Origin: Salinigranum rubrum | GTDB lineage: Archaea > Halobacteriota > Halobacteria > Halobacteriales > Haloferacaceae | Direction: 5' to 3' | Assembly (NCBI RefSeq): GCF_002906575.1 | Contig: NZ_CP026309.1 | Span: forward strand, 744,001 to 808,000 | DNA length: 64,000 nucleotides | Program-made: the position numbers and the translations under genes | The notes under the pieces: model-generated | Told to the model about the DNA's origin: nothing | Database searches by the model: none | What the model saw: the letters and a program-made list of their open reading frames with translations, nothing else | Shown: one piece after another, positions 2,754 through 57,779 of the stretch | How positions within the stretch are numbered: position 1 is the stretch's first letter | Layout: every line of letters begins with the position of its first letter

Positions 2754-2892
2754 TATCTATCTACATCACTTCGATCCCGCGTTGAGATTCAACATTGTGT
2801 GTAAATTCATCTCAAAAATCACATTACGATATTATTGGGTGATATATTGCCAGATTGTGTTCTCTCGCCCCTGTGATCGACATGTGTTCGCG

Positions 2893-3417
2893 TCAGCGCG
2901 CACGAACCCGTACTGTCGCGGTGGTCTCACCCGTCGGCGACCGGTGAACCACGTCGAGCGCGACGCCGACCAGTGCGGTCTCGTTCGCCCGTTCCTGGAC
3001 GACGATACCGCCGTCGGCGACACAGGGACCGAACGCGCGCTGAGCATCACCCGGGCAGTCGCTGTCGGCCCACTCGGCCGCGACGTCACTGTTCTCACGC
3101 ACGACGAACACCGAGCGGTCCGCCGCGGCGACCTGTCGGAGGTTTTCCCGCGCCCTTCCGAGTGCGGCCCGGGTGTCGTTGACGGTCTGCCCGCGTTCCG
3201 CCCACGGTCGGACCGGTCCCACGGCCGCCTCGTTGACGCTCCGCTGGAGGTGACGTTCGGCGACGCTCATCGGGTCGCCAGTTCCGATCTCCGTCGTCGT
3301 TCGGACGTCGCCGTGGTACGCGAGACCGTGATACGCCGTCGCCATCGCGACCAGCGCGACCGCCACGACGACCGCCGCGAGGACGACGACTTGCCCGCGG
3401 TTCGCTCCCCCGCTCAT
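2893..3417 (-). CDS. Pilus-operon protein with one N-terminal membrane helix (last gene of operon)
   Basis: A 174-aa protein starting MSGGANRGQVVVLAAVV: a short polar tip, then one helix (about 9-30) and an extracellular-looking acidic domain, as in type IV pilin-like or minor-pilin proteins. It has a Cys pair (DSDCPGDAQRAFGPC). The ATG at 3417 overlaps the previous gene's TGA by 4 nt and is preferred over an ATG 9 nt upstream. It ends the overlapping operon led by the ATPase at 9930. I do not recognise a named function. Confidence 0.8.
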   Translation of the reverse strand: MSGGANRGQVVVLAAVVVAVALVAMATAYHGLAYHGDVRTTTEIGTGDPMSVAERHLQRSVNEAAVGPVRPWAERGQTVNDTRAALGRARENLRQVAAADRSVFVVRENSDVAAEWADSDCPGDAQRAFGPCVADGGIVVQERANETALVGVALDVVHRSPTGETTATVRVRAR

Positions 3418-3848
3418 CGGAACCACACCCAGAGCGTCACGCGTCCCCCGACACTCTCTCGCATCGCCCGTCCAACCGGTCCGCGTGGGGGGAGCGGGTC
3501 GCCGACGACGCCATGCGGCGTCGCCAGCCGATAGCGGACGCGGTCGGGGTAGAGCGCCCGTAGCTGGTCGTCAGTGTGGCTCCGCTCACGGACGAACCCC
3601 GACCGGTCACGAGCGAGCGCCGTCAACCGCGACGTGCCGTCGCCGTCGGGCGGTGTCGCGTCGAGCACGTCGAGTCCGTCCTCCGCGAGTACGGTCAACG
3701 TCGCCTCCTCCGATTCGGCCTCGGGAAGCCCGACGACGAACGTCGTCGCCGCTGCGAGGACGACGAGGAGGCCGACGGCGGCCTCGACGACGGACAAGGA
3801 GAGCTGTCCGCGACGTCCGTTCCGACTGCTCGCCCCGCGGTCACACAT
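3414..3848 (-). CDS. Pilus-operon protein with one N-terminal membrane helix
   Basis: A 144-aa protein: Arg-rich N-tip, then RRGQLSLSVVEAAVGLLV, where an E a few residues into the hydrophobic stretch is reminiscent of pilin-like N-termini, then one helix to about residue 42. The rest is a short soluble domain. It overlaps the upstream gene by 8 nt and the downstream gene by 4 nt, so translation is probably coupled. It is likely a minor pilin or assembly factor; the family is uncertain. Confidence 0.8.
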   Translation of the reverse strand: MCDRGASSRNGRRGQLSLSVVEAAVGLLVVLAAATTFVVGLPEAESEEATLTVLAEDGLDVLDATPPDGDGTSRLTALARDRSGFVRERSHTDDQLRALYPDRVRYRLATPHGVVGDPLPPRGPVGRAMRESVGGRVTLWVWFR

Positions 3849-37999: not shown

Positions 38000-38374
38000 T
38001 TAGAAGCTGGGTTTGCCTGAGCCACCGCCTCGCCCCACGTAAGCCGCAGTGAAGGCGGTGACGTTGTTGATCGGGAACGCGTTGATTGTGGCATCGTTCC
38101 CTATTCCAGCAAGCGAGTACAGGCTCGGCGGAAGGGTGGGCACATCGTTGCCCTTCCCGTCGAGTGAGGACAGCGTCGGAGGGAGCGGGTCGTTGCCCTT
38201 CCCGTCAAGCGAGTACAGGCTCGGCGGAAGGGTGGGCACATCGTTGCCCTTCCCGTCCATTGGTTCGGCTGCGGCCATTCCGCTGGTTCCAGCTACCGCG
38301 GAGGTCAACATGACCGCGACGAGAAGTACTCTGGTGGCAGTGCGTCCAGCCGTGATGTGGGTCAGTGCTTTCAT
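38000..38374 (-). CDS. Small secreted repeat protein 1 (DGKGND family, undescribed)
   Basis: A 124-aa protein. A Sec-type signal peptide (1-36: RVLLVAVMLTSAVAGTSG then MAAA|EP) is followed by three repeats of about 15-17 residues, each starting DGKGND and continuing with Pro/Leu/Ser-rich sequence (VPTLPPSLYSL, PLPPTLSSL, VPTLPPSLYSL), then a fourth diverged unit IGNDATINAFPINNVTA and a Gly-rich tail. No Cys. Repeats 1 and 3 are identical over 52 bp. It is homologous to the protein at 41828: same signal-peptide register and the GNDATxxAFPIxN motif. The ATG at 38374 is supported by the conserved upstream element exactly 25 nt away. Unknown function; the G-x-G-N-D core faintly resembles RTX Ca-binding loops, but the spacing differs. 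Confidence 0.78.
   Translation of the reverse strand: MKALTHITAGRTATRVLLVAVMLTSAVAGTSGMAAAEPMDGKGNDVPTLPPSLYSLDGKGNDPLPPTLSSLDGKGNDVPTLPPSLYSLAGIGNDATINAFPINNVTAFTAAYVGRGGGSGKPSF
38110..38161. repeat. 52-bp direct repeat, copy 1 (within secreted repeat protein 1)
   Basis: This is identical to 38206-38257, 96 bp away, and encodes the same peptide repeat (part of SL, DGKGNDVPTLPPSLYSL). The unit between is a diverged copy. Perfect identity suggests recent duplication or gene conversion. Confidence 0.9.
38206..38257. repeat. 52-bp direct repeat, copy 2 (within secreted repeat protein 1)
   Basis: Second identical copy of 38110-38161. Recombination between the copies would delete 96 bp, exactly 32 codons, keeping the frame. 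Repeat number could therefore vary between cells or strains. Confidence 0.9.
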
Positions 38375-38399
38375 CACAGTTGGAGGCAAGACGTGGTAT

Positions 38400-38425
38400 T
38401 CGATGAAGTCAGACGCTCAGTATTG
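38400..38425 (-). promoter_or_regulatory. Conserved upstream element of the secreted-peptide genes, copy 1
   Basis: On the minus strand it reads CAATACTGAGCGTCT, then GACT, then TCATCGA, matching the element at 41777-41802 at 22 of 26 positions. It ends exactly 25 nt before the ATG at 38374. Further upstream CTAGAGGTGAGCGC parallels CTAGATAGTAAGCGC before the other gene. It is a shared promoter, operator or leader-RNA element. The rest of 38426-38699 shows no gene. Confidence 0.7.
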
Positions 38426-38699
38426 CAGCGCGTCTCCGGCGCTCACCTCTAGATAATTAGCACGAATCGAGCTGTTCGGCCAGAACCGGGGTCTCGCTTC
38501 GCACGCTCACCCAGCGGCTGATTCGTCGGTGATGAACCAATCCGACCCGTGAGCAGGCAGAACGCGGGAGTTGGTTTCTGGATAGCTGTCACTCACACCT
38601 GTAGTCTCGCCTCGCCAGCACCTACGGTGAGTGCAGCCGGAGGACCGTTTCAACTCGCTTCAGCCACCGTGAGTCGTTCACCGGGTCGTTACCGGTCGG

Positions 38700-39809
38700 T
38701 CACGTGAGAATCGAGACGTCCGTGAACTCGAATCTGGCTCCCGTGTCCGAGTCGGTCGATGTAGCATCGGGTGATACGACCGATACCCACCAGCCATGCT
38801 CCTGTGCGATCCGATCGACGATGGCGAGTCCGAGCCCCCGACTCCCCGGTGTAGTCGTCACGCCGACCCTGAACACACTGTCGCCGACTTCCGACGGGAT
38901 TCCCGGGCCGTCGTCGACGACCGCGAACCCATCTGGAATCGGTTCGACAGCCACGGTCACATCAGGCCCCGCATGCTCCACGGCGTTGCGAAAGAGGTTC
39001 TCGAAGATCTGGCGAAGACGGTCGGCGTCGGCTCGGATCGTCGGTACATCTGGTGAACTGACGAGCGTGGCGTCGGCCGTGTCGACTGTCTCCCACGCGG
39101 ACTCGGTTGCGTCCCCCAGCGCAACCGCGTCGGTCGGGTCGATACCTCCTGCGCTGGCCGAGTTGACATCGCTGACTAGTTGTTCGATCCGATCGAGTGC
39201 GCCCGCGACTTTCTCGAAGTGGACATCCTTGCCGGCCTCCTGTGCTGCTTCGAGGCGGATTCTAGCCACTTCGAGGGGGTTCCGAATGTCGTGGGTCACG
39301 ACGTCCAAGGTTCGTTCGAGGCGGTCTATCCTCGCCACCAGTTCGAGTCGTCCTTGCTCGAGTTCTGGAACGGTAGTGAAGTGGAGATAGCTACCAGTGT
39401 GGTCTGGCCCTGTGTCGATCGCTCGGACGTGGAAGTGACGTCTGTCGCCCGAGAGGACCTGTGCGAGTCGAACCGTCGAGTCGGCTGTCCCGCCGACGGC
39501 ATCGAGGATGTTCCTCACGGTTGTCGTGTCATGCGGGCTGATGTCGTGGGCGTCAGCGTCGTCATCTGTGGTTGAGACGATTCGGCCAGCAACGGTGACC
39601 TGCTCGAGAGGGGTGCCGATGCAGTCGCGGTCGACGTTGAACGTCGATTCGAAGGCGGGGTTCACCATGTGGAGCACGAGCGCATCTGGACGCGAATTCG
39701 GCTCATCTGACCGGGCGGGCCGGTATGACAGAACGGGATCGGGAAACACGTCGAAGAGACCACTCTCCGTCGATCCCTGGTCCGGCCCGGTATCTGGGGC
39801 CGCTGTCAT
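38700..39809 (-). CDS. PAS-domain sensor histidine kinase (cytoplasmic)
   Basis: A 369-aa kinase without membrane helices. The N-terminal PAS-like domain covers about 18-150. H-box DVVTHDIRNPLEVARIRLE (phospho-His near 173), N-box IFENLFRNAVEHAG, G1 AVVDDGPGIPSEVG and G2 GSRGLGLAIVDRIAQEHGWW. Its start overlaps the end of the Bat-type regulator gene by 4 nt, so the two are one transcript on the minus strand. The dimerisation part is short, as in many haloarchaeal kinases. Confidence 0.92.
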   Translation of the reverse strand: MTAAPDTGPDQGSTESGLFDVFPDPVLSYRPARSDEPNSRPDALVLHMVNPAFESTFNVDRDCIGTPLEQVTVAGRIVSTTDDDADAHDISPHDTTTVRNILDAVGGTADSTVRLAQVLSGDRRHFHVRAIDTGPDHTGSYLHFTTVPELEQGRLELVARIDRLERTLDVVTHDIRNPLEVARIRLEAAQEAGKDVHFEKVAGALDRIEQLVSDVNSASAGGIDPTDAVALGDATESAWETVDTADATLVSSPDVPTIRADADRLRQIFENLFRNAVEHAGPDVTVAVEPIPDGFAVVDDGPGIPSEVGDSVFRVGVTTTPGSRGLGLAIVDRIAQEHGWWVSVVSPDATSTDSDTGARFEFTDVSILT

Positions 39810-41428
39810 TGGTCTCCCCCCTGCTCACCTTGCCACTCGTCACGCTCGTCGCGAAGTGGTCGCCCCGGGTCATCGGAGATGAATGCGTCGACCAGCTTCC
39901 ACTGGGCGGCCCGGAGGTGGTAGTGGAGCGTGGGGGAGGAGATCCCAAGTCCCTCGGCGAGTTCCTCGGCCGTGCTGTCACGTGGTGATTTGAAGTAGCC
40001 GCCGTGATACGCCACCCTCAGTGTCGTTTGCTGGCGGTCGGTGAGTCGCTCGTGGAGCGAGCTTCGGAACTCCTGAGCCGTCTCGACGTCCCGCTCTCGT
40101 TCCCGCTTCGCGAGGAGATTCGAGTCGGGAAATCGATCACCGACGGCCTCGACCACTGCGCGGATGTCCTCGTCGGGGGCGAGTTCCGCGACGACCCAGC
40201 CGACGCCCTCAGTGTACGTCACCGTACGGACGGTTGCGCCGTATTCCACCAGGGTCAAGAGTGGTGATTCCTCGGTGATGGTGAGTTCGAGCAGTCCACC
40301 GTCGGTCGCCTCGTCTGCTGTCGTTTCGTGGACGACGCGTGCGTCGACAATCCCAGTCGAGTCTACCACCGTCTCGAGGAGTTTTCCGGGTGGCACTCCC
40401 TCGACGCTGACGAAACAGCGCAACGCGCCTTCAGAGAGCGGGACGACGCCTTCAACCGCGAGCGAGCATGCCAGTCGAGATGACGCCGCCAGCAGAGCGT
40501 CCGCAGAATCGGTCAGGCGGAACCTGAGTTCGACCACCGTGTCCGACAGGAGGAGATTGCGCTGTCGAGCAGCGTTGATGACGAATCCCATCGCGACGCC
40601 CAACGTCTCCAGGCTCTTGCGCTCGCGCTCGGTGAAGGCGTTCGCGCGAGCGGCGTACACGCCAAGGACGCCGTAGGTGGTCGTACCGTATCGAACGGGG
40701 ACCGCGATGGCAGACTGCAGCCCGCGAGCGAACGCGACGCGCCGTATCTGCTCGGGCACTGACTCGTCCTCGACGAGTTGTCGAACGAGTCGCGTCTCAC
40801 CGGTTCGTGTGACGGCTTGTTCCAGGTACTCCGGCCCATCGGACGTTCCACTCTCGTCGACGAGCAACTCGACGACACCTTCGTATTCGCCAGCAGCACT
40901 CCGGTAGATGAGACGGTCGGTCAGCAGGTCGCGCTCCCCGACCCACGTGAACTCGTAGAGATCGCTCGCCGCAAGCCGTTCACAGACGGTCCGTTCGATT
41001 TCCTCACGATTCGTCGCGCCGACCAGTTCGCGGATTATCTCCTGAATGGCCGCGTTGATGCGCGTGAGACGGTCTAATTCCGCCTCGCGGTCGGTAATCG
41101 AGTCCTCCAGGTCTTTGCGAGCAGTGACGTCGTGGAAGACGACCACCATCCCACTATCCACAGGGACCGTCCGAACCTCGAACCATTTCCCGATGTCGGG
41201 GAAATAGTCCTCGAAGTCGATCGCAGCCGGCTCTGAGTCCTCATCAGCGACGGACTCGTGGAACCGCGAGTCGACCGACCGGGGAAAGACATCCCGGACA
41301 TCGAGGCCGGTCAACTCCGAGACCTCACGATGGAGGCTGGCCGCCGCGACGGCGTTCGAACGAGTGACGAGCCAGTCCTCATCGACGACGAACACTCCGT
41401 CTGTCACGTAATCCAGGGTATCGTCCAT
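39806..41428 (-). CDS. PAS-GAF Bat-type transcriptional regulator (HTH_10)
   Basis: A 540-aa protein: PAS domain about 1-110 (VTDGVFVVDEDWLVTRSNAV, VVVFHDVTARKDLEDSI), GAF domain about 125-280 (YRSAAGEYEGVVELLVDESG, SAIAVPVRYGTTTYGVLGVY), bacterio-opsin-activator linker about 290-450, and C-terminal HTH_10 LTDRQQTTLRVAYHGGYFKS then TAEELAEGLGISSPTLHYHL. A one-component sensor and DNA-binding protein, coupled to the kinase downstream. It diverges from the second secreted-peptide gene, which it could control. Confidence 0.93.
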   Translation of the reverse strand: MDDTLDYVTDGVFVVDEDWLVTRSNAVAAASLHREVSELTGLDVRDVFPRSVDSRFHESVADEDSEPAAIDFEDYFPDIGKWFEVRTVPVDSGMVVVFHDVTARKDLEDSITDREAELDRLTRINAAIQEIIRELVGATNREEIERTVCERLAASDLYEFTWVGERDLLTDRLIYRSAAGEYEGVVELLVDESGTSDGPEYLEQAVTRTGETRLVRQLVEDESVPEQIRRVAFARGLQSAIAVPVRYGTTTYGVLGVYAARANAFTERERKSLETLGVAMGFVINAARQRNLLLSDTVVELRFRLTDSADALLAASSRLACSLAVEGVVPLSEGALRCFVSVEGVPPGKLLETVVDSTGIVDARVVHETTADEATDGGLLELTITEESPLLTLVEYGATVRTVTYTEGVGWVVAELAPDEDIRAVVEAVGDRFPDSNLLAKRERERDVETAQEFRSSLHERLTDRQQTTLRVAYHGGYFKSPRDSTAEELAEGLGISSPTLHYHLRAAQWKLVDAFISDDPGRPLRDERDEWQGEQGGDQ

Positions 41429-41776
41429 AGTATCGTGTTAGACGGTACCAGTAGTCAAGATTCGGACTGGCCTGACAGAGTGTACTCGTGTGGTCTGTCA
41501 TTCAGACGGGTTCTCTATGTCGAAGATGACGCCGCCGTCACCTGCGGGGAGGAGCCAGTTCGATGGTCGGTCTGGCCCCGGTCGGCTGGGGGCTGTGTGT
41601 GGTGGGTTGGAATCGGCCATGATCACCGGCCCTGTCCCTATTGGAAGGCACGTGTCTCAGTGGGACACCGGTATTCGGTTGTCGATCCTTGCGTCGTACC
41701 ATGCCCGCGAGGTATTGAAGCTCTGCAGTGGCGGCTCTCCTCTAGATAGTAAGCGCTCTGAGGAGAGAGACGTTCT
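41429..41776. other. Divergent intergenic region, no gene seen
   Basis: It separates the Bat-type regulator from the second secreted-peptide gene. Short frames present lack domains. CTCTAGATAGTAAGCGC near 41741-41757 and the perfect 12-nt palindrome CTCAGTACTGAG (41775-41786, running into the conserved element) are the only signals I see. Confidence 0.4.
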
Positions 41777-41802
41777 CAGTACTGAGCGTCTATCCTCATC
41801 GA
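41777..41802 (+). promoter_or_regulatory. Conserved upstream element of the secreted-peptide genes, copy 2
   Basis: CAGTACTGAGCGTCT, then ATCC, then TCATCGA, matching 38400-38425 (minus) at 22 of 26 positions and likewise ending exactly 25 nt before its ATG (41828). Both leaders end with TGTG directly before ATG. Conservation outside the coding part indicates function. Confidence 0.7.
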
Positions 41803-41827
41803 TGCCTCCGTCCGAGCGGTAAGTGTG

Positions 41828-42265
41828 ATGATGGAAGACACCCACATCGCCGATGGAATCGCTGTCAAACTGCTGCTGGCCTGCATCGTCCTCACGAGTG
41901 GTGCGGTCGGCATCATGGGACTTGCACCCGCGACGGTTCACGAGGACGGATCGAGCGGAGACCACACAGCTGCGCTCGCGTTCCCGATCGACAACGTGAC
42001 TGCGACCGCAGAGACCCCCCTCGCCTCGATCGATGGGAAAGGCAACGACGCCACCCAGACTGCGTTCCCAATCGACAACATCTCCGTCGAGTTCCCGGTC
42101 GATGACATGTCACGTGACGTGGGGGACTGGGACGTTCGAATCCACCACCTGCGTGGTGTTACGGACGCCACCGGCGCAACTTCGCAGTTCCGAATGCAGG
42201 ATATGGACCCGTATGCGTTGCCGCGGCGTTCGGACGGACTCCCGCAGGACATGGATCCGTACTAG
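41828..42265 (+). CDS. Small secreted repeat protein 2 (DGKGND family, undescribed)
   Basis: A 145-aa paralog of the protein at 38000. The two align from residue 1 (M..xTHIxxG), through a hydrophobic segment (KLLLACIVLTSGAVGIMGLA) that is a signal peptide or membrane anchor. The mature part contains ALAFPIDNVTA, SIDGKGNDATQTAFPIDNIS and an acidic stretch VEFPVDDMSRDVGDWDVRIH, and ends with a QDMDPY repeat (about 124-129 and 140-145, the last residues). It has one DGKGND unit instead of three. A GTG 3 nt upstream and an ATG 3 nt downstream are other possible starts. 80 nt upstream of a PGF-pre-PGF surface protein on the same strand. Function unknown. Confidence 0.75.
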   Translation: MMEDTHIADGIAVKLLLACIVLTSGAVGIMGLAPATVHEDGSSGDHTAALAFPIDNVTATAETPLASIDGKGNDATQTAFPIDNISVEFPVDDMSRDVGDWDVRIHHLRGVTDATGATSQFRMQDMDPYALPRRSDGLPQDMDPY

Positions 42266-42345
42266 AGACCAATCCGGAGACACCGTCGCGGTTCTCGATA
42301 AGCTATTTGGTGTGTGTTAGCATACACTGCGGAACGGAGACGATT

Positions 42346-43755
42346 ATGAGACCAGGTGCCTCTGGGCGGACAGTGCGGGTGCTCCTCGTGATGGCAGTCC
42401 TTCTCTCCACCGCTGCCGTCGGGGTAGCAGTCCAGCCCACGGGTCCTGTCTCGCGACAGGTCGACGCGGAACCGGATATCGTGGTCCAGCCCGAGGCGCT
42501 CCGTTTCTCGAACGCGACTGGCGAGTCGGAGGCGCAGACGCTCTCGATACGAAACGTGGGAGACGCCCCACTGACGATCGATGCAGTCGCCATCGTCGGA
42601 CCCGACCGAGCAGCCTTCGAGCGGGCGTTCGACGGGCCGCTGACGCTCGGACCGGGTGACCGACAGAACGTGACTGTAACGTTCGACGCGACGACGGCAC
42701 GCCCGCAGTTCGCGACGCTCCACGTCCTGAGCAACGATCCGGACGAACCGCAACGGAACGTCTGGCTTACGAATACGCAGACGGTCGCTGACGTCTCGCC
42801 GTCACGGGTGCTGGAGCGAAAGACACTGGTGAACGCCACGATCACGGACGCCGAGGCGAACACGACGCAGTCGCTCAATATCTCGTGGCCGCTGACGCGT
42901 GACGACGTCGTCGCGGTTGACGCGGTCACGTTCACGCCTGAACGCGCCGGATCGGTCGATCTCAGCATAGCGACGAACGTCAGTCGGTTCGGCGACGTCC
43001 CTGCGTTCGCTCTCGGCGACGGAACAGAGCCCGCGGGATACGTCCACGTCGATCACAGCATTCCGAACGAGCAGATCAGTGACGTCACGTTCAGAATCCG
43101 TGTTCGGAAAGACCGATTGGCCGGGAACGAGACCGGCCCAGAGGACGTCGTGCTGTACCGTCACGAGGAAAGCGGGTGGGTCGAACTCCCGACACGGTTC
43201 GTCGAAGAGGGTGAGACCCACTACTTTTTCGAGGCGAGGACACCGGGGTTCTCTGACTTCACGACGGGTGTAAAACAGGCGAAGTTCCGTATCACCGACG
43301 CGCTCGTGACCGTCACGCGTATCAGCACACATCAGGGAACTGAGGTCCTGGTCCGCGTGCGGAACGATGGGGGTGCAGATGGCACGTACACTGTGAAACT
43401 GCTCCTCGAAGAGACGCTGGTGGACCGCACGGAGCTGTCGATCGCCCCGAACGGAACTCGACAGGCCACCTTCGAACGCTCCTTCGACGAACCGGGAATC
43501 TATCAGGTGTACGTCAACGAACGGTTCGTCGGAAACGTCACGGTCGAATCCGGAGACACCGTACCGACGGGTGGCTCAACGATCGGTCGCAGGGGTACTC
43601 TTACAGCCGAGAGGACGAACAACGCGTCGACGGGCCCTCCAGAGGCTAGTCAGGCAACGAGCGGTGAATCCGTTCCTGGACTCGGGTTCGGCACGACGGC
43701 TGTCGCACTGCTCGTCGTGGCCCTGTCCGTAGCGTTCGGTCGTCGTCACCGGTAA
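42346..43755 (+). CDS. PGF-pre-PGF domain surface protein
   Basis: A 469-aa exported protein. Signal peptide 1-36. A choice-of-anchor / ASPM-SPD-2-Hydin-type beta domain (about 40-140: LRFSNATGESEAQTLSIRNV, APLTIDAVAIVG) is followed by the PGF-pre-PGF domain (about 150-320: ITDAEANTTQSLNISWPLTR, DVVLYRHEESGWVELPTRFV, FEARTPGFSDFTTG). A CARDB-like domain follows (about 325-410), then a Thr/Ser-rich stalk and a C-terminal ESVPGLGFG plus helix plus RRHR tail of the PGF-CTERM kind processed by archaeosortase. Many N-glycosylation sequons. Same strand as the secreted peptide upstream. Confidence 0.87.
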   Translation: MRPGASGRTVRVLLVMAVLLSTAAVGVAVQPTGPVSRQVDAEPDIVVQPEALRFSNATGESEAQTLSIRNVGDAPLTIDAVAIVGPDRAAFERAFDGPLTLGPGDRQNVTVTFDATTARPQFATLHVLSNDPDEPQRNVWLTNTQTVADVSPSRVLERKTLVNATITDAEANTTQSLNISWPLTRDDVVAVDAVTFTPERAGSVDLSIATNVSRFGDVPAFALGDGTEPAGYVHVDHSIPNEQISDVTFRIRVRKDRLAGNETGPEDVVLYRHEESGWVELPTRFVEEGETHYFFEARTPGFSDFTTGVKQAKFRITDALVTVTRISTHQGTEVLVRVRNDGGADGTYTVKLLLEETLVDRTELSIAPNGTRQATFERSFDEPGIYQVYVNERFVGNVTVESGDTVPTGGSTIGRRGTLTAERTNNASTGPPEASQATSGESVPGLGFGTTAVALLVVALSVAFGRRHR

Positions 43756-43839
43756 TCCAGTCCGGCCCAGTCGATGTCCTGTCTCAGTGGACTCTTGGCC
43801 ACAGTGAGGGAAATCGCGGAGCCGACGAGGCTCGTCCGG

Positions 43840-45648
43840 CTAACGCTCTCCTCCCGACTCCCCGTCCGGCCCGTGTGTCGGTGTCGTCGCCGCGGCCCGT
43901 GGGAGGAGCAGTTCGACGACCGTCCCCCGAGGGGATGCGTCGTGGAACCGGAGGTGACCACCTGAACGGTCGGCGAGCCAATGGGCCAACCAGAGACCGA
44001 GGCCGCTCGCGTGTTCGAGCTCCGTCTCGCGTCCCTCGGTGATGGCAGTCCGGTCCTGTTCGGGGAGACCGGGGCCATTGTCGGCAATCACGATGCGTAC
44101 CCAGCGGTCGGTGTCGCTGTCGACGACGCCATCCTTCCACACAGTCTCGCCGTCCGCTTTCCTGTCTTGGTCGGCGCGCTGGACACTGTCATCCACAGTA
44201 CCGGTTCGAGTCAGTTCCGTCGGACGTGTTCCACGCGCACTCGTCCCGTCGACCGTGGCGACCGTTACCTCGACGTGAGGTTCCTCGGCATCGTTGTGCT
44301 GGCAAGCGTTCTCACAGACGCTCTCGATCGCCATCCGGAGCGACGGGAGGGCGTGTGCCCAGCGGTCCTCGGCGAGAGAGGTTTCGATCTCCACCGTCGG
44401 GTACGTCTCACGGAGGTCGGCGACAACGTCGGAGACGATCTCGTTCACCTCTATCCGCGAGGGTGTCTGATCATCCGCGAGGGCTGTCTCGATCTGACGG
44501 GCCCGTTCGCTGAGATGCGTGAGCGTCTGTCCTGCGTCGCCGATAGACTGAGCTGCCCTGCGGATTTCTTCGTCGTTGGTGACCTCAGCGATGACATCTG
44601 CGTAGGTCAAGAGAACCGTTAGCTGGTTCCGGAGGTTGTGCCGCACGACGCGGTACATGACTTCCAGTCGCTGTGTTCGGCGACGAAGCGCCGTCTCGCG
44701 CGCTTGGAGCGTCGACGCCAAGTCATTGAACCCGTCGCTGATCTGCTCCCACTCGGTGCCACCTTCGAGCGAGACAGTCCGGTCGTAGTTACCGGATCCG
44801 ATGTCATCGAAGCCCCCGAGGAGACGCTCCGTCTGGCGAAGACTCGCGACGTACTGCCAGTAGCCGAGCCCGGCCATCACTACGAGTACGACACCCAGCT
44901 GTCCAGCTTGAAACAGCTCCAGACGATGGAGGCGGGCATCGAGTCTCGACCGGTCGCGGACGACGGTGACCGTCCACCCCGTCGCGTCAACAGTCGCGGA
45001 GGCTTCGATCGACGCGGTGAACTGCTGGTCGCCCTCGTAGAGTTCCGTCCCGTTCCCGACGACTCGAACGGTCTGTCTGCTCGTTTCTAAGGGTGGCAGT
45101 GCGTCAAAGGCGGTCTGTGTGTCGAGATAGACCGCCCCTGCGAGGACACCCGCTATCTCCCCGTCCTCGAAGATCGGCGTACTGAACACGAGGACGTGCC
45201 TGTCCGTCTCGTCGACAGCCTCGCCCTCTCCCACGAACGAGCGACCGTCGAGCGCGGCTTTGACGTAGGGTTCGGTGCTTCGGTTCGAGCCGAGGACGGC
45301 TCGCCGCTGTTGGGCTGTGATGTCTCCGCGAAAGGCGATGACGGTCCCGTTCGTGGCGACGATCTGGGCGGCGTAGAAACGTGAGTTCAAAACGAGCGCA
45401 TCGAGAAACTGACCACTCTGGTCGAACTGGTGTGCTTCTGACCGGGATGCGACGAGCCCCAAGTAGTCCTGTCTCTCGCGAACCGATGCGTCGATCTGGT
45501 TTGCTGTACGGGTCGCCGTCTCGTTGACGGCCACGCGAGACTCCTCGACGGCATCGCGTCGATACAGATCCACAGCGGTGAAAACCGAGACACTCAGCGT
45601 GAGTGTCACCAGGATGATGACGATCGCGAACTTACTCCGGAGCCGCAT
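43840..45648 (-). CDS. Membrane sensor histidine kinase with extracellular dCache-like domain
   Basis: A 602-aa protein. First helix 8-28, extracellular sensor about 30-250 (YAAQIVATNGTVIAFRGDIT, GVLAGAVYLDTQTAFDAL) of Cache type, second helix about 255-275, HAMP (LLGGFDDIGSGNYDRTVSLE), H-box VMYRVVRHNLRNQLTVLLTY (phospho-His near 336), N-box SVCENACQHNDAEEPHVEV, G1 IADNGPGLPEQD and G2 ASGLGLWLAHWLA. An acidic loop of about 50 residues between the N and G boxes is unusual. It likely detects an extracellular ligand; the nearby secreted proteins are candidates (inference). Confidence 0.92.
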   Translation of the reverse strand: MRLRSKFAIVIILVTLTLSVSVFTAVDLYRRDAVEESRVAVNETATRTANQIDASVRERQDYLGLVASRSEAHQFDQSGQFLDALVLNSRFYAAQIVATNGTVIAFRGDITAQQRRAVLGSNRSTEPYVKAALDGRSFVGEGEAVDETDRHVLVFSTPIFEDGEIAGVLAGAVYLDTQTAFDALPPLETSRQTVRVVGNGTELYEGDQQFTASIEASATVDATGWTVTVVRDRSRLDARLHRLELFQAGQLGVVLVVMAGLGYWQYVASLRQTERLLGGFDDIGSGNYDRTVSLEGGTEWEQISDGFNDLASTLQARETALRRRTQRLEVMYRVVRHNLRNQLTVLLTYADVIAEVTNDEEIRRAAQSIGDAGQTLTHLSERARQIETALADDQTPSRIEVNEIVSDVVADLRETYPTVEIETSLAEDRWAHALPSLRMAIESVCENACQHNDAEEPHVEVTVATVDGTSARGTRPTELTRTGTVDDSVQRADQDRKADGETVWKDGVVDSDTDRWVRIVIADNGPGLPEQDRTAITEGRETELEHASGLGLWLAHWLADRSGGHLRFHDASPRGTVVELLLPRAAATTPTHGPDGESGGER

Positions 45649-45834
45649 ACACGACTGTTGTCAAGGAACACGATAAGAATACACGCTCAGACGAACGCAG
45701 AAGTCACACGGACCCGAGGCGGACGCTCAAGACTGAGCACTGCGAGAGATCGACTGGAGGCTCCCTCTGTTCTCCCGGACCGTTGCACGAAAGTATAACA
45801 GCTCTAGTGACCAACCTCATTGGCGCGTGATACT

Positions 45835-46404
45835 ATGGCACAGGAGAGGGAGGGAACGATTCTATTCGTCGACGACGAACGCGAAGTCGCTGATGCGTAC
45901 GCGCTCCGGTTACGGTCGCGTTACGGAGACGTCAGAACAGCGTATGGTGGTGAAGAAGCGCTCGTGGAGATGGACGACACGGTAGATGTGGTGTTACTGG
46001 ACCGTCGGATGCCGTATTCGGGTGATAACGTGTTGCGGGACCTCCGAGACTACGGGTACGACTGTCGTATCATCATGGTGACGGCAGTCGACCCTGGATT
46101 CGGAATCGTCGACATGCCCTTCGACGATTACCTCTGCAAACCAATCGACAAAGAGGACCTCTTTGCAGCGATCGACCAGCAACTAGAGGCTGCTTCGTAC
46201 GATGATCCACTCACGGCCTTTTTCAGCCTCACTGCGAAACTGGCCGTCCTCGAGGCCGAGCATACAGCTGAACAGCTTGCGGAGTCCACCGAGTACCTCC
46301 GGATGCAACGACGAAGCGAAAAACTCCGTGAGGAACTCGCGGTTTCGGAGGAGAACTTCACCGAGATGCGAGAGACGTTCACCGCGATCAACCGAGCCGG
46401 CTGA
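45835..46404 (+). CDS. Response regulator with HalX output domain
   Basis: A 189-aa protein. Receiver domain 1-112: acidic pair DD at 13-14, phosphoacceptor Asp56 (DVVLLDRRMP), Lys102 (CKPID). The C-terminal HalX domain (about 115-182) is a helical region with FSLTAKLAVLEAEH and LREELAVSEENF. There is no DNA-binding domain, as usual for HalX proteins. It diverges from the membrane kinase at 45648 and is its probable partner. TATA-like AGTATAAC lies about 40 nt upstream. A TTG at 45820 is an alternative start. Confidence 0.92.
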   Translation: MAQEREGTILFVDDEREVADAYALRLRSRYGDVRTAYGGEEALVEMDDTVDVVLLDRRMPYSGDNVLRDLRDYGYDCRIIMVTAVDPGFGIVDMPFDDYLCKPIDKEDLFAAIDQQLEAASYDDPLTAFFSLTAKLAVLEAEHTAEQLAESTEYLRMQRRSEKLREELAVSEENFTEMRETFTAINRAG

Positions 46405-47840: not shown

Positions 47841-48019
47841 CGTGTGGAGGTGAGGACCGAAGCGACAAAAGGGGTCGTCCCGGCCCGAACCGTCCCGGCC
47901 TCGACCACAGCGCCGCCGGCGTGTCGGGTCGACGTGAACGTTCCGTGCCCGCTCCGAGACCACCGGGCGACGACGTTTCATACACAACTTGACATCTCCG
48001 CGGGTCGTATCCTCCCACG

Positions 48020-49579
48020 ATGACTGGGGAGGCTGAGACACCGGAGGAAGGAGGCGCGTGGGAGCCAGTCGAACACCGGTTCGACCACCTGCCGGTCCAC
48101 GTCGCGCTGTTGCACACGGGGAAGGTACTCGCGTTCGGCGGGTCGGGCAACGACGAGACGCGCCTGCATCACCCGTATCCCGCGGAACTGTTCGACCCCG
48201 AGACCGGGAGCCTCACCGTCGTCGACCAGGAACTCGGGGGCGATGTCTTCTGCGTCGGCCACGCGTTCCTCCCCGACGGCCGGTTGCTCGCCGCGGGCGG
48301 CACCTACCGGTACGACGGCGGCATCGACCCGCCCGCGCTGCCGGGGGTGCCCGACCTGCCGAACCTTCCGCCCTTCGCGGGGCTCGACCACACCTACCTG
48401 TTCGACCCCGACGCGGAGCGGTGGACGCGGGGACAGGACGTCCACGCCGGGCGGTGGTACCCCACGCTGGTGACGATGGGCGACGGGAGCGTGCTGGCCG
48501 CGGCCGGTCTCACCAAACACCCGCCGTGGGTCGCCCTGCGGAAGCTGGAGCTGTACACCCCCGGTGAGGGGTGGCGTGTCCTCCGCGGTGCCGGTCGGTG
48601 GCTCCCCCTCTACCCGCGGCTCCACCTCCTTCCCGACGGGACGGTCTTCTACGCCGGGTCGTACAACACCCACTACACGTTCCCCTTTTCGCTCCGGGCG
48701 TTCCCGACGGCGCGGTTCGATGTAGGGAGAAGAACGTGGACCGAGTACGGCCTGCCCAGCGAGCAAGAGCGCGAGGAGGGCGCCTCGGCGTTGCTCCCGC
48801 TTCGTCCCGGGGACGACTACCGGGCTCGCGTGCTCCTCGCCGGCGGCGGGACGCCGACCGGGACGGAGGCCGTCGCCGACACGGAACTCATCGACCTCTC
48901 CGCGCCCGACCCGCGGTGGCGGTCCGTCGACTCGATGGCGCACGCACGCTACTACGCCTACGCCGTCTTGCTCCCCGACGGTACCGTGTTCGTGATGGGC
49001 GGACGCAGCGGCAAGAAGGGGCACGTCCACGGGGTCGGGTACGACCCCGAAACGGGCGAAGTCGCGTCGGCACCGAACGCCGTCCACGAGGCCGAGCGGT
49101 TCGACCCCGCAACGGAGACGTGGACTGCGCTCGCCCCGATGACGGTCGACCGCCTGTACCACTCGAACGCCCTGTTGCTCCCCGACGGTCGGGTGTTGAC
49201 GTGCGGGAGCAATCCCCGACGACGGGTCGACGAGCTTCGAATCGAACTGTACCGGCCGCCGTATCTGTTCGCCGGTCCCCGCCCGACCGTCGACGCCGCG
49301 CCCGAGCGCGTCGTCTACGGTGAGGCGTTCGACGTGGAGACGCCGGACGCGCCCGAGGTCGACGAGGTCGTGCTCGTCCGCCAGTCGTCGACGACCCACT
49401 GTCTCAACACGGACCAGCGGCTGGTCGAACTCGTCGTCGAGGCGAAGAGCGAAGGAACGCTCACCGTCCGCCTCCCGGCGAACCCGAGCCTCCTCCCGCC
49501 GGGGTACTACCTCCTGTTCGTCCTGCGCGAGGGCGTTCCCTCGGTCGCGCCGTTCGTTCGGGTGGCGGGCGGCGACTGA
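48020..49579 (+). CDS. Galactose-oxidase-like copper radical oxidase (Kelch propeller plus DUF1929)
   Basis: A 519-aa protein with a seven-bladed Kelch propeller (repeated LPDGRLLAAGG, LPDGTVFYAGS, LPDGTVFVMGG, LPDGRVLTCGS) and a C-terminal DUF1929 beta-sandwich. Candidate cofactor residues match the galactose/glyoxal oxidase set: Cys78 (FCVGHAFLPDG), Tyr147 (GRWYPTLVTM), Tyr380-His381 (DRLYHSNALLL) and His460 (STTHCLNTDQR). These would form the Cys-Tyr radical and copper site and oxidise an alcohol or aldehyde with O2. There is no signal peptide, odd for a family that is normally secreted. Confidence 0.88.
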   Translation: MTGEAETPEEGGAWEPVEHRFDHLPVHVALLHTGKVLAFGGSGNDETRLHHPYPAELFDPETGSLTVVDQELGGDVFCVGHAFLPDGRLLAAGGTYRYDGGIDPPALPGVPDLPNLPPFAGLDHTYLFDPDAERWTRGQDVHAGRWYPTLVTMGDGSVLAAAGLTKHPPWVALRKLELYTPGEGWRVLRGAGRWLPLYPRLHLLPDGTVFYAGSYNTHYTFPFSLRAFPTARFDVGRRTWTEYGLPSEQEREEGASALLPLRPGDDYRARVLLAGGGTPTGTEAVADTELIDLSAPDPRWRSVDSMAHARYYAYAVLLPDGTVFVMGGRSGKKGHVHGVGYDPETGEVASAPNAVHEAERFDPATETWTALAPMTVDRLYHSNALLLPDGRVLTCGSNPRRRVDELRIELYRPPYLFAGPRPTVDAAPERVVYGEAFDVETPDAPEVDEVVLVRQSSTTHCLNTDQRLVELVVEAKSEGTLTVRLPANPSLLPPGYYLLFVLREGVPSVAPFVRVAGGD

Positions 49580-52748: not shown

Positions 52749-53012
52749 CACGCCCTCGTCGTCGACTCGCCGTCCTTGTCGTCGCCGCGTCCACCAACGA
52801 CTCGTCTCGCACTCTCCGCCCCGAACTCGCTTGTTGTGCCGTCCATCGACCAGGACGAGCGGCGCTCGAACCGACGCCACGGCTCTCCGTCGCTCTCCGA
52901 CGCGAGAGCCTCGACGGTTTTCTGACGCAGTAGTTGATATTTATTCGCTGTCACACCCCACGTCATAAAATCACAAAGTATTAGGATGTGGTCTATATAC
53001 CAGCTCCATTGT
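52749..53012. other. Intergenic region with the promoter of the branched-chain-type ABC operon
   Basis: Mostly GC-rich without a gene, then an AT-rich tract from about 52935: TTGATATTTATTC, CATAAAATCACAAAG and CTATATACC (52992-53000). The last lies only about 17 nt before the ATG at 53013; the CATAAAATC block at about 52963-52971 could serve a transcript with a short leader. Confidence 0.4.
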
Positions 53013-54389
53013 ATGTCAGACGATCACACGAACAAGTCGCGTCGGCGGTTCCTGAAAACGGCGGGTGCAGGCGCAATCGCGGTCGGATTCGCGGGCTGTT
53101 CCGGCGGCGGCGGTTCGAGTGGCTCCGGCAGTCCGAGCGAGTCGGGCGGGGGAGGGAGTTCGGGCGGCACCAGCACTGACACCGAGAGCGGGGGTTCGAC
53201 CGGAAGCACCGGCGGCGGCCGCGACCGGTTCAAACTGGGCGCGGTCACGTCGCTGTCGGGCGACCTCCGCTTCGGCGGTGGCGTCACCAAGCGCGGATAC
53301 GACCTCTGGGCGGACACGGTCAACCAGAACGGCGGCATCGAGGTCGGCGGGGAGTCGTACGACGTCGAAATCGTCTACGCCGACGCACAGTCGAAGCCCA
53401 GTTCGGGCGCCGACGCCGCCTCGCGGATGATCTCCAGCGAGAACGTCGACGCCGTGCTTGGCCCCTACTCCAGTAACGTCACGCTGGCCGTCTGTCCGAT
53501 CATGGAACAGAACTCCATGCCGCACATCACGGGCAGCGCGGAGTCGCCACAGATCTGGCAACAGGGGTTCGAGTACTCGTTCGGGACGATTCCGACGGTC
53601 TCGATCATCGCCAGCGAAACCGGGGAGGCGCTGTTGAACCTCGACCCGAACGCCGAATCGGTCTACATCACCGGCGTCAACGAACCCTTCTCGAAGAGCA
53701 CCGCGGAGGCGATGCGCACGGCCGCCGAGAACGCCGGCGTCGAAGTCCTCGACTTCCAGCTCTTCCCGCGGGGCGCCGACTACGCGAACGTCGTCTCCCA
53801 GGCGAAGAGCGCGGGTCCGGACCTCCACCTCCACGGCGGACACATCGGGAGCCACGTCAACCTCATCAACGCCGCCGAGCAGTTCGACTACTCGCCGAAC
53901 GGCTTCATGATGCACTACGGCGTCAACACGGGGAGTTACAAGGACGGCGCGGGTGCGGGCGCGGCCCACACGTTCGGCGCGACCGTCTGGCTCCCGAGCG
54001 CCGACCGCTCCGGCGGCGTACTGTTCGACTCGCCGAGCGCCTACGCCGACGCCGCGCAGGCCGCCTACGGCAGCGCTCCCGACTACACGCAGGCCGGATC
54101 GACGGCCGCCGGCATCGTCTTCCAGGAGGCGTTCAAAGAGCTCGGCTCCGCGCCGCCGCTCTCACAGGACGACAAGGACGAACTCATCTCCGTCCTCGAA
54201 GGGATCGAGGTCAACACGTTCTACGGGGACGTGCGGTTCGAGACCGAGGGCGAGTACTACCACAACAACATCAACACGACCTCGCTCCTCATCCAGCTTG
54301 CCGAGGACGGGTCGCCGAATATCGTCGGACCGGAGGACCAGGCCGTCGGCGAGGCGACGTACCCGATTCCGAGCTGGAGTGAACGGTAA
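53013..54389 (+). CDS. Branched-chain amino-acid-type substrate-binding lipoprotein (LivK-like)
   Basis: A 458-aa Tat lipoprotein: SRRRFLKTAGAGAIAVGFAGC, a Gly/Ser/Thr linker of about 45 residues, then a type I periplasmic-binding fold: GAVTSLSGDLRFGGGVTKRG, GYDLWADTVNQNGGIEVGG, VDAVLGPYSSNVTLAVCPIM, HITGSAESPQIWQQGFEYSF and QAGSTAAGIVFQEAFKEL. It captures an amino acid or similar ligand (the family also takes amides and aromatic acids) for the permeases downstream. First gene of the operon; 6 nt to the next. Confidence 0.93.
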   Translation: MSDDHTNKSRRRFLKTAGAGAIAVGFAGCSGGGGSSGSGSPSESGGGGSSGGTSTDTESGGSTGSTGGGRDRFKLGAVTSLSGDLRFGGGVTKRGYDLWADTVNQNGGIEVGGESYDVEIVYADAQSKPSSGADAASRMISSENVDAVLGPYSSNVTLAVCPIMEQNSMPHITGSAESPQIWQQGFEYSFGTIPTVSIIASETGEALLNLDPNAESVYITGVNEPFSKSTAEAMRTAAENAGVEVLDFQLFPRGADYANVVSQAKSAGPDLHLHGGHIGSHVNLINAAEQFDYSPNGFMMHYGVNTGSYKDGAGAGAAHTFGATVWLPSADRSGGVLFDSPSAYADAAQAAYGSAPDYTQAGSTAAGIVFQEAFKELGSAPPLSQDDKDELISVLEGIEVNTFYGDVRFETEGEYYHNNINTTSLLIQLAEDGSPNIVGPEDQAVGEATYPIPSWSER

Positions 54390-54395
54390 CGAGCG

Positions 54396-55289
54396 ATGGT
54401 CGAGACCGGACTGCTGATTCAGACAATCGTCAACGGCCTGCTGCTGGGCGGCATCTACGTCACCGTCGGCGTCGGCTTCTCGCTGGCGTTCGGGGTGCTG
54501 GAGGTCGTCGACTTCGCCGTCGGCGAGTACGTGATGCTCGGCGCCATCCTCGGCGGACTCGCCGCCCCCCTGCTCGGGTCCGAGGGCGTCTTCGTCATCC
54601 CGTTCGTCCTCGTCGGCTTTTTCGTCCTCGGCTTCTTCGTCCAGCCGCTCATCCACCACGTCACGACGGGCGACCGGCCCCAGCCGCTGCTGATGGGGCT
54701 CGTGTTCACCTTCGGGCTGGCGACGTTCTTCCGCGGGACCGTCCTCACCGTCTTGGGACCCAACAACCGCGACGTCCCCTCGTCGCTGCTACAGGGGAGT
54801 CTCACCGTCCCCAGCGTGGGTATCTTCCCGTACGTCCGCGCCGCGACTGCCGTCTTCGGTGTCGTCGCCCTCGCGGCGTTCATGTACTACCTCTACAACA
54901 CCAAGGGCGGGATGGCCATCCGCGCCATCGCCGAGGACCGGACGAACGCCCGCCTGATGGGGATCAAGATCAACCGGTACCAGTCCATCGCCTACGGGAG
55001 TTACGCCGCGCTGACGGCGGCCGCGGGCGTGTTCATCGGGATGGTGTTCACCGCCAATCCGGGGATGGGTCTCCAGTACACCGCCTTCGCGTTCTTCATG
55101 GTCGTGCTCGCCGGGATGGGCTACCTCCCCGGCGTGATTCTCAGCGGTATCGTGCTGGGGCTGACCCAGTCCCTGACGGCGGTGTACGCGAGCAGCCAGG
55201 TCGTCCTCCTCGTGCTGTTCGCGCTCATCTACGTGGTACTGCTCGTCTCGCCGGCCGGCATCCTCGGGAAAGGGGAGTGGGCTTCATGA
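54396..55289 (+). CDS. livH: Branched-chain-type ABC permease LivH-like
   Basis: A 297-aa membrane protein with about eight helices. Family features: NGLLLGGIYVTVGVGFSLAF at the N-terminus, DFAVGEYVMLGAILGG, and the cytoplasmic EAA-like loop GMAIRAIAEDRTNARLMGI. It forms the channel with the LivM-like protein, whose gene overlaps its stop by 4 nt. Confidence 0.93.
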   Translation: MVETGLLIQTIVNGLLLGGIYVTVGVGFSLAFGVLEVVDFAVGEYVMLGAILGGLAAPLLGSEGVFVIPFVLVGFFVLGFFVQPLIHHVTTGDRPQPLLMGLVFTFGLATFFRGTVLTVLGPNNRDVPSSLLQGSLTVPSVGIFPYVRAATAVFGVVALAAFMYYLYNTKGGMAIRAIAEDRTNARLMGIKINRYQSIAYGSYAALTAAAGVFIGMVFTANPGMGLQYTAFAFFMVVLAGMGYLPGVILSGIVLGLTQSLTAVYASSQVVLLVLFALIYVVLLVSPAGILGKGEWAS

Positions 55290-56320
55290 GCGAGAAGACG
55301 ACCGACGTGCTCTCGACGCGGCTCGGGGACGTCCCGGTCTGGCTCGTCGTCCTCGTCGCCGTCGTCGTGCTGGTCGCCCTCCCGATGGCCCTCGGCGCGT
55401 TCTGGACCCGTATCGGCCTCGGCGCCCTCATGTGGATCGGCCTCGCACAGTCGTGGAACATGATCGGCGGCTACGCCGGCTACCTCGACTTCGGACACGG
55501 CGCGTACTTCGGCATCGGCGCGTTCGCCACCGGCGCCGTGATGGTCACGTTCGGCCTCCCGTTTCTCGCGGGCTTCGTGGTCGCCGCCGCCGTCGCCGCC
55601 GTCATCGCCTACCTCGTCGCCGTCCCGACGCTCCGCCTGACCGGGGCGTACTTCGCCATCGCGACCTGGGCGCTCGCGGAGGCGTTCAAACAGTTGGCGC
55701 TCAACCTCGACATCACCGGCGGAACGTTCGGACTCAGCCTGCCGACCGCCGCGGGGAGCTTCGGGCTCCCGGTCGGGGAACTCTCGACGTCGCTGTTCTA
55801 CTACCTCATGCTGGCGCTGTGTCTCGCGACCATCGCCGTGACGTACGTCGTCTTCGAGCGCAGCGAGTTCGGGTTCCGCGTGAAGGCGCTCCGGGACGAC
55901 GAGGACGCCGCCGAGTCGCTCGGCATCGACACCACCCGAGTAAAGCGACAGGTGTACGTGCTGTCGTGTGCCATCGCGGCGCTGTTCGGCAGCGTCCACG
56001 CGTACTTCATCACGTTCATCCACCCGAACGACGTCCTCGCGGCGATCATCACCGACCAGATGGTGATCATGGCGCTTCTGGGTGGACTCGGGACTATCAC
56101 CGGCCCCATCATCGGCGGGATTCTCGTCTTCTTGCTCCAGCGTCTCTCGTCGGTGTTCCTCGGACAGTCGACCATCTACCTCCCGCTCATCGGCGTCCTC
56201 ATCATGATCGTCGTGCTGTTCGCGCCGAGCGGCGTCGTCGGCATCCTGCGCGGCGAAGTCGACCGAACCGACATCCGAAACAACGCGCGCGAACTCGCGG
56301 AGAAGTTCGACCTCCTATGA
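55286..56320 (+). CDS. livM: Branched-chain-type ABC permease LivM-like
   Basis: A 344-aa membrane protein: LGALMWIGLAQSWNMIGGYA, GYLDFGHGAYFGIGAFATG (the typical helix-turn), the loop FRVKALRDDEDAAESLGIDT, and GGLGTITGPIIGGILVFLLQ. The C-terminus is short and acidic. Overlaps both neighbours by 4 nt; the ATG at 55286 makes that coupling. Confidence 0.93.
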   Translation: MSEKTTDVLSTRLGDVPVWLVVLVAVVVLVALPMALGAFWTRIGLGALMWIGLAQSWNMIGGYAGYLDFGHGAYFGIGAFATGAVMVTFGLPFLAGFVVAAAVAAVIAYLVAVPTLRLTGAYFAIATWALAEAFKQLALNLDITGGTFGLSLPTAAGSFGLPVGELSTSLFYYLMLALCLATIAVTYVVFERSEFGFRVKALRDDEDAAESLGIDTTRVKRQVYVLSCAIAALFGSVHAYFITFIHPNDVLAAIITDQMVIMALLGGLGTITGPIIGGILVFLLQRLSSVFLGQSTIYLPLIGVLIMIVVLFAPSGVVGILRGEVDRTDIRNNARELAEKFDLL

Positions 56321-57057
56321 GCGAACGAGACACCATCCTCCGGACGGAGGAGTTGACGAAGACGTTCGGGGCGCTCCGGGCGAACGACGGCATCTCGCTG
56401 TCGGTGCCTCGGGGCGAGATCAGAGGCATCATCGGCCCGAACGGGAGCGGGAAGACGACGTTCTTCAACACCGTCACCGGCTTCTACCAGCCCGACGGCG
56501 GTTCGGTCGCCTTCGACGGGACCGACATCACGGGCTGGAAGCCCCACAAGATCGCTCGTCGTGGGCTCGGCCGAACGTTTCAGATCGTCTCACCGTTCGA
56601 GAACATGACGGTCCGGCAGAACATGCTGGCGGTCCAGACGACCGACGACTTCGACAAGCAGGCCCGGGCCGACGAGATTCTGGCGTTCCTCGACATCGAC
56701 CACATCGCGGAGAACCAAGCGAGCGGCATGAGCGGCGGGCAGCAGAAACTGCTCGAACTGGCGCGGGTCCTGATGCTGGACCCGGAGGTCATCATGTTGG
56801 ACGAACCCGCCGCGGGCGTCAACCCGGCGCTGGAAGAGCGCATCATGGACCACATCCGCGACCTCAACGACGAGGGGACCACGTTCGTCGTCGTCGAACA
56901 CGACATGAACGTCATCCGGTCCATCGTCGACAGCGTCTCCGTGTTCGACCAGGGCGCGCTCATCGCCGAGGGGACGTTCGACGAGGTGCGACAGGACGAG
57001 CGGGTCCGCGAGGCGTACCTCGGTACCGCCGCGGACGACGAGGGGGTGCCGATATGA
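56317..57057 (+). CDS. livG: Branched-chain-type ABC ATPase LivG-like
   Basis: A 246-aa ATPase: Walker A IIGPNGSGKTTFFNTVTG, Q-loop RTFQIVSPFENMTVRQNML, signature GMSGGQQKLLELARVL, Walker B VIMLDEPAAGVNPAL, switch VVVEHDMNVI. The C-terminal EAYLGTAADD is LivG-like. One of two ATPases energising the importer; 4-nt overlaps on both sides. Confidence 0.94.
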   Translation: MSERDTILRTEELTKTFGALRANDGISLSVPRGEIRGIIGPNGSGKTTFFNTVTGFYQPDGGSVAFDGTDITGWKPHKIARRGLGRTFQIVSPFENMTVRQNMLAVQTTDDFDKQARADEILAFLDIDHIAENQASGMSGGQQKLLELARVLMLDPEVIMLDEPAAGVNPALEERIMDHIRDLNDEGTTFVVVEHDMNVIRSIVDSVSVFDQGALIAEGTFDEVRQDERVREAYLGTAADDEGVPI

Positions 57058-57779
57058 GCACCGACGCCGGCCCGCCGACGCTGATCGCCGAGGACGTGGT
57101 CACCGGCTACGACGACCACGAGGTGCTCCACGGCATCTCCTTCGAGAACCGCGACGGCGTCACCTCCATCTTCGGTCCGAACGGCTCCGGGAAGTCGACG
57201 TTCATGAAGGCGGTGAACGGCGTCGTCCCGGTCTGGTCGGGACGCGTCCGGTACGGCGACGTCGACCTGACGGGCCGGCCGCCCGAGGAAACCGTCACCA
57301 ACGGCATCGCGACGCTCCCGCAGGGCGGTGGCGTCTTCGACAGCCTCTCGGTCGAGGAGAACCTCCGCGTCGGCGCCTTCACCGTCGACGACGGCGAGAC
57401 GGTCGAACGGCGTATCGACGAGGTCCTCGACGCGTTCCCCGCGCTCGAAGACAAGATGGGGGACAAGGCGCGGAACCTCTCGGGCGGCCAGCAGATGATG
57501 GTCAGCCTGGGTCGGGCGATGATGTCCGGCGCGGACACCTACCTGCTCGACGAACCGTCCGCGGGTCTCGCACCACAACTGGTCGACGACGCGTTCGACC
57601 TCGTCACGACGCTCGTCGACAGGGGCGCTCGCGTCGTCCTCATCGAGCAGAACGTCTCCGCGGCGCTCCGCATCACCGACTACGTCTACATCTTCGCCGA
57701 GGGTGAGGTGCAGTTCCACGGCGAACCGACCGACCTCGCCGACGAGGACGAACTGATGAACCTCTATCTCGGGCTGTAG
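57054..57779 (+). CDS. livF: Branched-chain-type ABC ATPase LivF-like
   Basis: A 241-aa ATPase: Walker A IFGPNGSGKSTFMKAVNG, Q-loop ATLPQGGGVFDSLSVEENLR, signature NLSGGQQMMVSLGRAM, Walker B TYLLDEPSAGLAPQL, switch VLIEQNVSAAL, ending LMNLYLGL. Pairs with LivG. Last gene of the five-gene operon. Confidence 0.94.
   Translation: MSTDAGPPTLIAEDVVTGYDDHEVLHGISFENRDGVTSIFGPNGSGKSTFMKAVNGVVPVWSGRVRYGDVDLTGRPPEETVTNGIATLPQGGGVFDSLSVEENLRVGAFTVDDGETVERRIDEVLDAFPALEDKMGDKARNLSGGQQMMVSLGRAMMSGADTYLLDEPSAGLAPQLVDDAFDLVTTLVDRGARVVLIEQNVSAALRITDYVYIFAEGEVQFHGEPTDLADEDELMNLYLGL

Follow-up and report, generated by a model that had tools for sequence, protein, structure and literature searches.

A leaderless gene for a GlxA-type copper-radical oxidase, predicted from sequence and model, in Salinigranum rubrum and other archaea

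The window studied here is the whole 64,000-nt stretch of Salinigranum rubrum DNA taken for analysis (contig NZ_CP026309.1). Its forward strand holds an intact open reading frame at 48020-49579 that starts with ATG and encodes 519 aa, in agreement with the initial annotation. The features of the locus are as follows (window coordinates; row counts refer to the 22-row alignment described below).

47990..47992, + strand: in-frame TGA stop, 10 codons 5' of the ATG
48020..49579, + strand: gene for a predicted GlxA-type copper-radical oxidase, leaderless; 519 aa, kelch-type propeller and C-terminal E-set domain
48251..48253, + strand: Cys78 codon, predicted crosslink Cys; corresponds to GlxA Cys121; Cys in 22/22 rows
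48455..48457, + strand: Trp146 codon; corresponds to GlxA Trp288; Trp in 21/22 rows, Gly in 9g43
48458..48460, + strand: Tyr147 codon, predicted radical/crosslink Tyr; corresponds to GlxA Tyr289 and galactose oxidase Tyr272; 22/22 rows
48659..48688, + strand: archaeal-clade loop S214-F223, SYNTHYTFPF; S214, N216, H218, F221, P222 and F223 in 9/9 clade rows and 0/13 others
49157..49162, + strand: Tyr380-His381 codons, predicted copper ligands; correspond to galactose oxidase Tyr495-His496; 22/22 rows
49280..49564, + strand: PF09118 galactose-oxidase-like early-set domain, residues 421-515, E 1.2e-25
49397..49402, + strand: His460, predicted copper ligand, and adjoining Cys461; His in 22/22 rows, Cys461 in 9/9 archaeal-clade rows and 0/13 others

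For the three window neighbours, Pfam yields a short-chain dehydrogenase, no family and a BrkB-like protein, respectively. Third-position GC is 0.66-0.75 for the genes called in window 38000-46404 and mostly 0.84-0.93 from 46.9 kb on (two exceptions, 0.69 and 0.76); the lower values suggest an acquired stretch that ends just before the oxidase gene. By eye, the genes further downstream (52986-57779) resemble an ABC transporter operon of the branched-chain-amino-acid type whose binding protein is a Tat lipoprotein.

A chance open reading frame is ruled out by the Pfam match of the protein to GO-like_E_set (E 1.2e-25), which is accompanied by kelch repeats, and by the top PDB sequence match, i.e., Streptomyces lividans GlxA (4unm, E 6.6e-66). 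The latter is followed by GlxA W288A mutants and the bacterial galactose oxidase 9g43. The match to Glyoxal_oxid_N is marginal (39.7 vs. a cut-off of 37.5), while the NCBIfam GlxA equivalog NF052501 scores 314.8 bits, i.e., below its curated cut-off of 800. Together with dN/dS, these Pfam and PDB E-values also rule out a pseudogene. Using our own Nei-Gojobori script, we computed a dN/dS of 0.224 for the window gene vs. its Salinigranum salinum counterpart and of 0.301 vs. that of Halogeometricum limi, while the oxidase genes of two Nitrosopumilus metagenome-assembled genomes (MAGs) give 0.099. That is, the oxidase genes compared are under purifying selection.

A complete set of copper-radical residues had been claimed for the protein, and all five are found at the positions given. 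They sit in the same motifs in 9g43 and in fungal galactose oxidase 1gof (aligned through 9g43). PDB titles give the 1gof numbers 272 and 495; the aligned Cys, His and His sites of 1gof are 228, 496 and 581. In GlxA, Trp288 sits over the radical; Trp146, beside the predicted radical Tyr, aligns with it and would take the same place. The predicted ligands Tyr380, His381 and His460 align with GlxA residues 501, 502 and 589, where GlxA numbering uses an offset of +30 set from the PDB titles reading 'W288A', consistent with the C121G variant in PMC4736821 (partial text).

An AlphaFold2 model based on an alignment of 14 sequences reached a pLDDT of 86.7 and a pTM of 0.90, and superseded an earlier, weak model from three sequences (pLDDT 70.5). 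Copper radical oxidases have a kelch-type propeller of seven blades. Both Pfam and superposition on GlxA and galactose oxidases identify a kelch-type propeller with an E-set domain in our protein, so the proposed copper-radical oxidase fold holds. When structures are compared by VIA-align, GlxA is the best match (Z 50.6, 2.2 A, 483 residues, 33% identity), followed by 9g43 (Z 46.8), 1gof (Z 44.7) and the F. graminearum glyoxal oxidase 9n3u (Z 41.0), while the first propeller from outside the family reaches only Z 23.3. The match to glyoxal oxidases (CAZy AA5_1) is thus alike in fold and weaker than that to GlxA. Foldseek also ranks GlxA first, then 9g43/9g8h, with larger rmsd (GlxA 4.8-5.3 A over 621-634 columns including gaps). 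With regard to a predicted grouping of the five residues in one site, the global superposition of the model and the residue alignment agree with each other.

Which known enzyme does the protein resemble most? With the galactose oxidases 1gof (fungal) and 9g43 (P. siccitolerans) it shares the Cys, Tyr, Tyr, His, His site, the propeller and the E-set domain. However, GlxA ranks higher than the galactose oxidases (AA5_2) by sequence as well as by structure, the archaeal clade stands apart in the tree presented below, and a GlxA-type Trp precedes the radical Tyr where 9g43 and 1gof have Gly. In addition, the archaeal protein has no visible leader and is missing the N-terminal part of 1gof, since the alignment begins at 1gof residue 150. 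We therefore rejected the assignment as galactose oxidase proper; as far as sequence and model tell, the protein is GlxA-like. That a true galactose oxidase was acquired from a fungus or bacterium, as the shared fold and catalytic residues might suggest, is very improbable given the ranking of GlxA, the Trp/Gly difference and the fact that the nearest relatives found are archaeal. To GlxA itself (SCO2837, S. lividans), the protein is alike in fold over the 483 superposed residues, in its copper-radical residues and in the Trp before the crosslink Tyr. It differs by the 33% identity of the structural alignment, by the loop and Cys461 of the archaeal clade and, most visibly, by its N-terminus.

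Fungal copper-radical oxidases are mostly secreted. In GlxA, the tested export/anchor segment lies within residues 1-32 (PMC11022532, partial text), and the enzyme acts at the cell surface (PMC11267884, PMC11022532; partial texts). The S. rubrum protein shows no such N-terminal signal or anchor, and the model aligns with GlxA only from GlxA residue 42-48 onward. The open frame that holds the oxidase comprises 528 codons, and the in-frame TGA 10 codons before the ATG excludes a signal peptide encoded upstream in the same frame. Within the first 80 residues, the most hydrophobic 15-residue stretch (at residue 26) averages 1.24 on the Kyte-Doolittle scale and lies within the first propeller strands; the respective maxima are 1.60-2.56 for five planctomycete homologues that are Sec-exported in appearance. 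A C-terminal anchor is not visible by eye in the 519-aa protein. At the sequence level, the upstream stop and the weak N-terminal hydrophobicity thus bear out the absence of an export signal noted initially.

Next, we studied how widely the gene is distributed. The S. rubrum genome holds a single copy. Among genomes of relatives, matches occur in 2/40 (2/4 within the genus), and at the order level in 3/392, one of them weak and partial; the S. rubrum genome is included in each of these two totals. The E-set family exceeds its cut-off in 2/392 genomes (own included) and in 0/14 control genomes. Two exact peptide patterns retrieved 13 loci from genome contigs: S. salinum, H. limi, five Nitrososphaerota MAGs, one unclassified bacterium and five Planctomycetota. 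The orthologues of the five Nitrososphaerota MAGs are 47-53% identical and without obvious leader; the ammonia oxidizers among the archaea belong to Nitrososphaerota. Within this phylum, 9/398 genomes match (centre counted), i.e., two with the full-length leaderless type, one partial, two of Tat type and four weak and partial; a sixth clade member lies on a 1.7 Mb contig. Hence, the idea of a lone haloarchaeal case has to be given up, since orthologues occur in two other haloarchaea and in six Nitrososphaerota sequences, and the archaeal occurrence of the leaderless oxidase is nevertheless very patchy. The plasmid search yielded 30 matching records, the best near-full-length match being 37% identical. 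The relative on a plasmid of Nostoc sp. C052 is apparently a broken gene, since it is annotated as two ORFs that overlap and lie in different frames. Carriage by viruses was rejected, since none of the 46 stretches that match the two patterns on viral contigs encodes a relative.

For phylogenetic analysis, 22 rows were aligned. Left out were the partial match of G709 (199-codon frame), an extra copy of G402 (781-codon frame), the weak partial matches of G070, G540, G627, G691, G750 and G391, the split Nostoc C052 gene, the other 26 of the 30 plasmid records, duplicate copies of included loci and other bacterial matches. In the maximum-likelihood tree (midpoint root, for drawing only), the three haloarchaea (100/98) and the six Nitrososphaerota (100/96) form one clade (100/99), where nine rows of the tree have a deviating letter make-up, six of them within this clade, and four other rows are long-branched. 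The bacterial rows are finds of the peptide patterns and the plasmid search only, so an unsampled bacterial sister of the archaeal clade is possible. An earlier GlxA phylogeny from 2013 states, going by domain composition, that archaea yielded no orthologs (PMC3543389, partial text). Against this statement, the sequences gathered here place the leaderless archaeal clade in two phyla. Among the titles and abstract starts of the open-licence literature, we found no description of an archaeal enzyme of this type.

The clade is also set apart by its residues: 20 positions are invariant in 9/9 clade rows and different in 13/13 others, among them S214, N216, H218, F221-F223, Y311, Y314 and C461. Cys461 directly adjoins the predicted copper ligand His460. 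By eye, most archaeal members have a further loop that is rich in His (about 331-352), part of which is of low model confidence. We tentatively go one step further, at somewhat less than an even chance: haloarchaea and Nitrososphaerota may share a distinct cytosolic subfamily, in which copper would be loaded and the Tyr-Cys link built inside the cell without extracellular Sco or DyP proteins. With its own active-site surroundings, i.e., Cys461 and the SYNTHxTFPF loop, such a subfamily would probably also have an intracellular substrate of its own.

None of the nine clade members shows an obvious leader by N-terminal sequence and hydropathy. The proteins open directly at the first propeller strands, with starts set by alignment where several are possible. 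Such an alignment-based choice was made for the GTG or TTG starts of four Nitrososphaerota loci (L008, L009, L011, L030). Two starts are doubtful: for S. salinum, the frame continues upstream for another 107 codons, which include GTG/TTG candidates, and for L008 a start at an earlier TTG would lengthen the protein by a short hydrophobic run. By eye, an obvious signal is also missing from the S. meliloti plasmid protein, the Nostoc C057 plasmid protein and the protein of the unclassified bacterium (L012), so leader absence is not unique to archaea. The Sinorhizobium meliloti plasmid relative (L043) is unannotated and carries a C-terminal extension of about 150-200 residues.

Two Nitrososphaerota proteins (L031 and L033, from G637 and G732) show a different design. 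They have the same complete catalytic residues and come from the same phylum as the six clade members, but start with Tat-type SRRDFLK and SRREFLK motifs, lack both Cys461 and the SYNTHxTFPF loop and group outside the leaderless clade; their genomes yielded no leaderless copy. By eye, L031 is surrounded by sugar-nucleotide-type genes. These paralogs, together with the surface location of GlxA as the closest characterized relative (partial texts cited above), could be taken to mean that the leaderless proteins are exported as well, by a non-classical route such as a Tat partner, and function outside the cell like their relatives. We consider this improbable, since L031 and L033 demonstrate that Nitrososphaerota can equip such an enzyme with a signal, while the nine clade members show no obvious one and no conserved adjacent partner was found.

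At the loci compared, no neighbour conserved across the archaeal clade was found that would point to a substrate. The sole shared block is an upstream gene pair common to L011 and L047 (61% and 75% identity). In S. salinum, the oxidase and three downstream blocks have the same order and orientation as in the window. Just upstream of the oxidase of the Nitrosopumilus MAG locus L011, a GMC-type FAD oxidoreductase gene is located at 2275-3819, and a phosphoesterase lies beside the oxidase in L007 (Nitrososphaerota). A cellulose synthase-like partner was not recognised beside the S. rubrum gene, neither by eye nor by Pfam on the three window neighbours.

The cytosol is normally copper-poor, its copper being tightly limited, and this raises the question of maturation. 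When copper is low, Streptomyces needs Sco and the DyP peroxidase DtpA to mature GlxA (PMC4736821, partial text). Among the nine gene-carrying genomes, several of which are MAGs and possibly incomplete, Sco-family proteins exceed the cut-off in four (the three haloarchaea including S. rubrum, and weakly G400), while Dyp_perox_N is found in one, which is not S. rubrum. The Streptomyces maturation partners thus do not look like general companions of the archaeal gene. On the other hand, E. coli over-expressing GlxA with copper produces the crosslinked form (PMC4736821, partial text), so maturation is possible outside the native host. On the Burkholderia ambifaria plasmid NZ_CP086300.1 (L046), a galactose-oxidase-like gene is immediately followed by one annotated as SCO family (copper chaperone), consistent with a Burkholderia pairing of such an oxidase with SCO that is mentioned in PMC4736821 (partial text).

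Given limited cytosolic copper and the extracellular chaperones of known GlxA maturation (same source), one may ask whether the site is present while copper never reaches it, i.e., whether it is a kelch/E-set protein that is catalytically silent, serves another purpose or binds another metal. We regard this as unlikely: the nine archaeal sequences, drawn from two phyla, and the 13 other rows all keep the five redox-site residues, which is hard to explain without metal-radical chemistry.

We therefore favour, as the probable reading, a working GlxA-type copper-radical oxidase that is made without a leader and stays in the cytoplasm. The residues, fold, leader absence, archaeal clade and purifying selection are computed results; from sequence and model, copper loading, the Tyr-Cys crosslink, the cytosolic location and the substrate class are most likely as follows. 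Copper from the cytosolic pool would be bound by Tyr147, Tyr380, His381 and His460 and drive self-processing, in which Cys78 becomes linked to Tyr147, with Trp146 placed over the radical as is GlxA Trp288. The Cu(II)/Tyr-Cys radical would then carry out the two-electron oxidation of a small primary alcohol or (hydroxy)aldehyde with O2 as electron acceptor, yielding H2O2 and an aldehyde or acid.

With regard to the role of such an enzyme, a fungal case is informative. In Metarhizium that has lost a glyoxal oxidase, which has a signal peptide and is located at the cell membrane, intracellular glyoxal and methylglyoxal rise (PMC11315307, partial text). Since loss of the fungal enzyme raises intracellular carbonyls, carbonyl clearance is a plausible role for the archaeal oxidase as well. 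Clearing of reactive carbonyls is our favoured guess by analogy, which we hold at well under an even chance.

The archaeal clade, in which the leader is not seen and the site residues do not vary, poses the question of whether a Cu/Tyr-Cys radical enzyme can mature and act in a copper-scarce cytosol, and what it would oxidize there. The clade is also a source of possibly salt-tolerant oxidases for biocatalysis.
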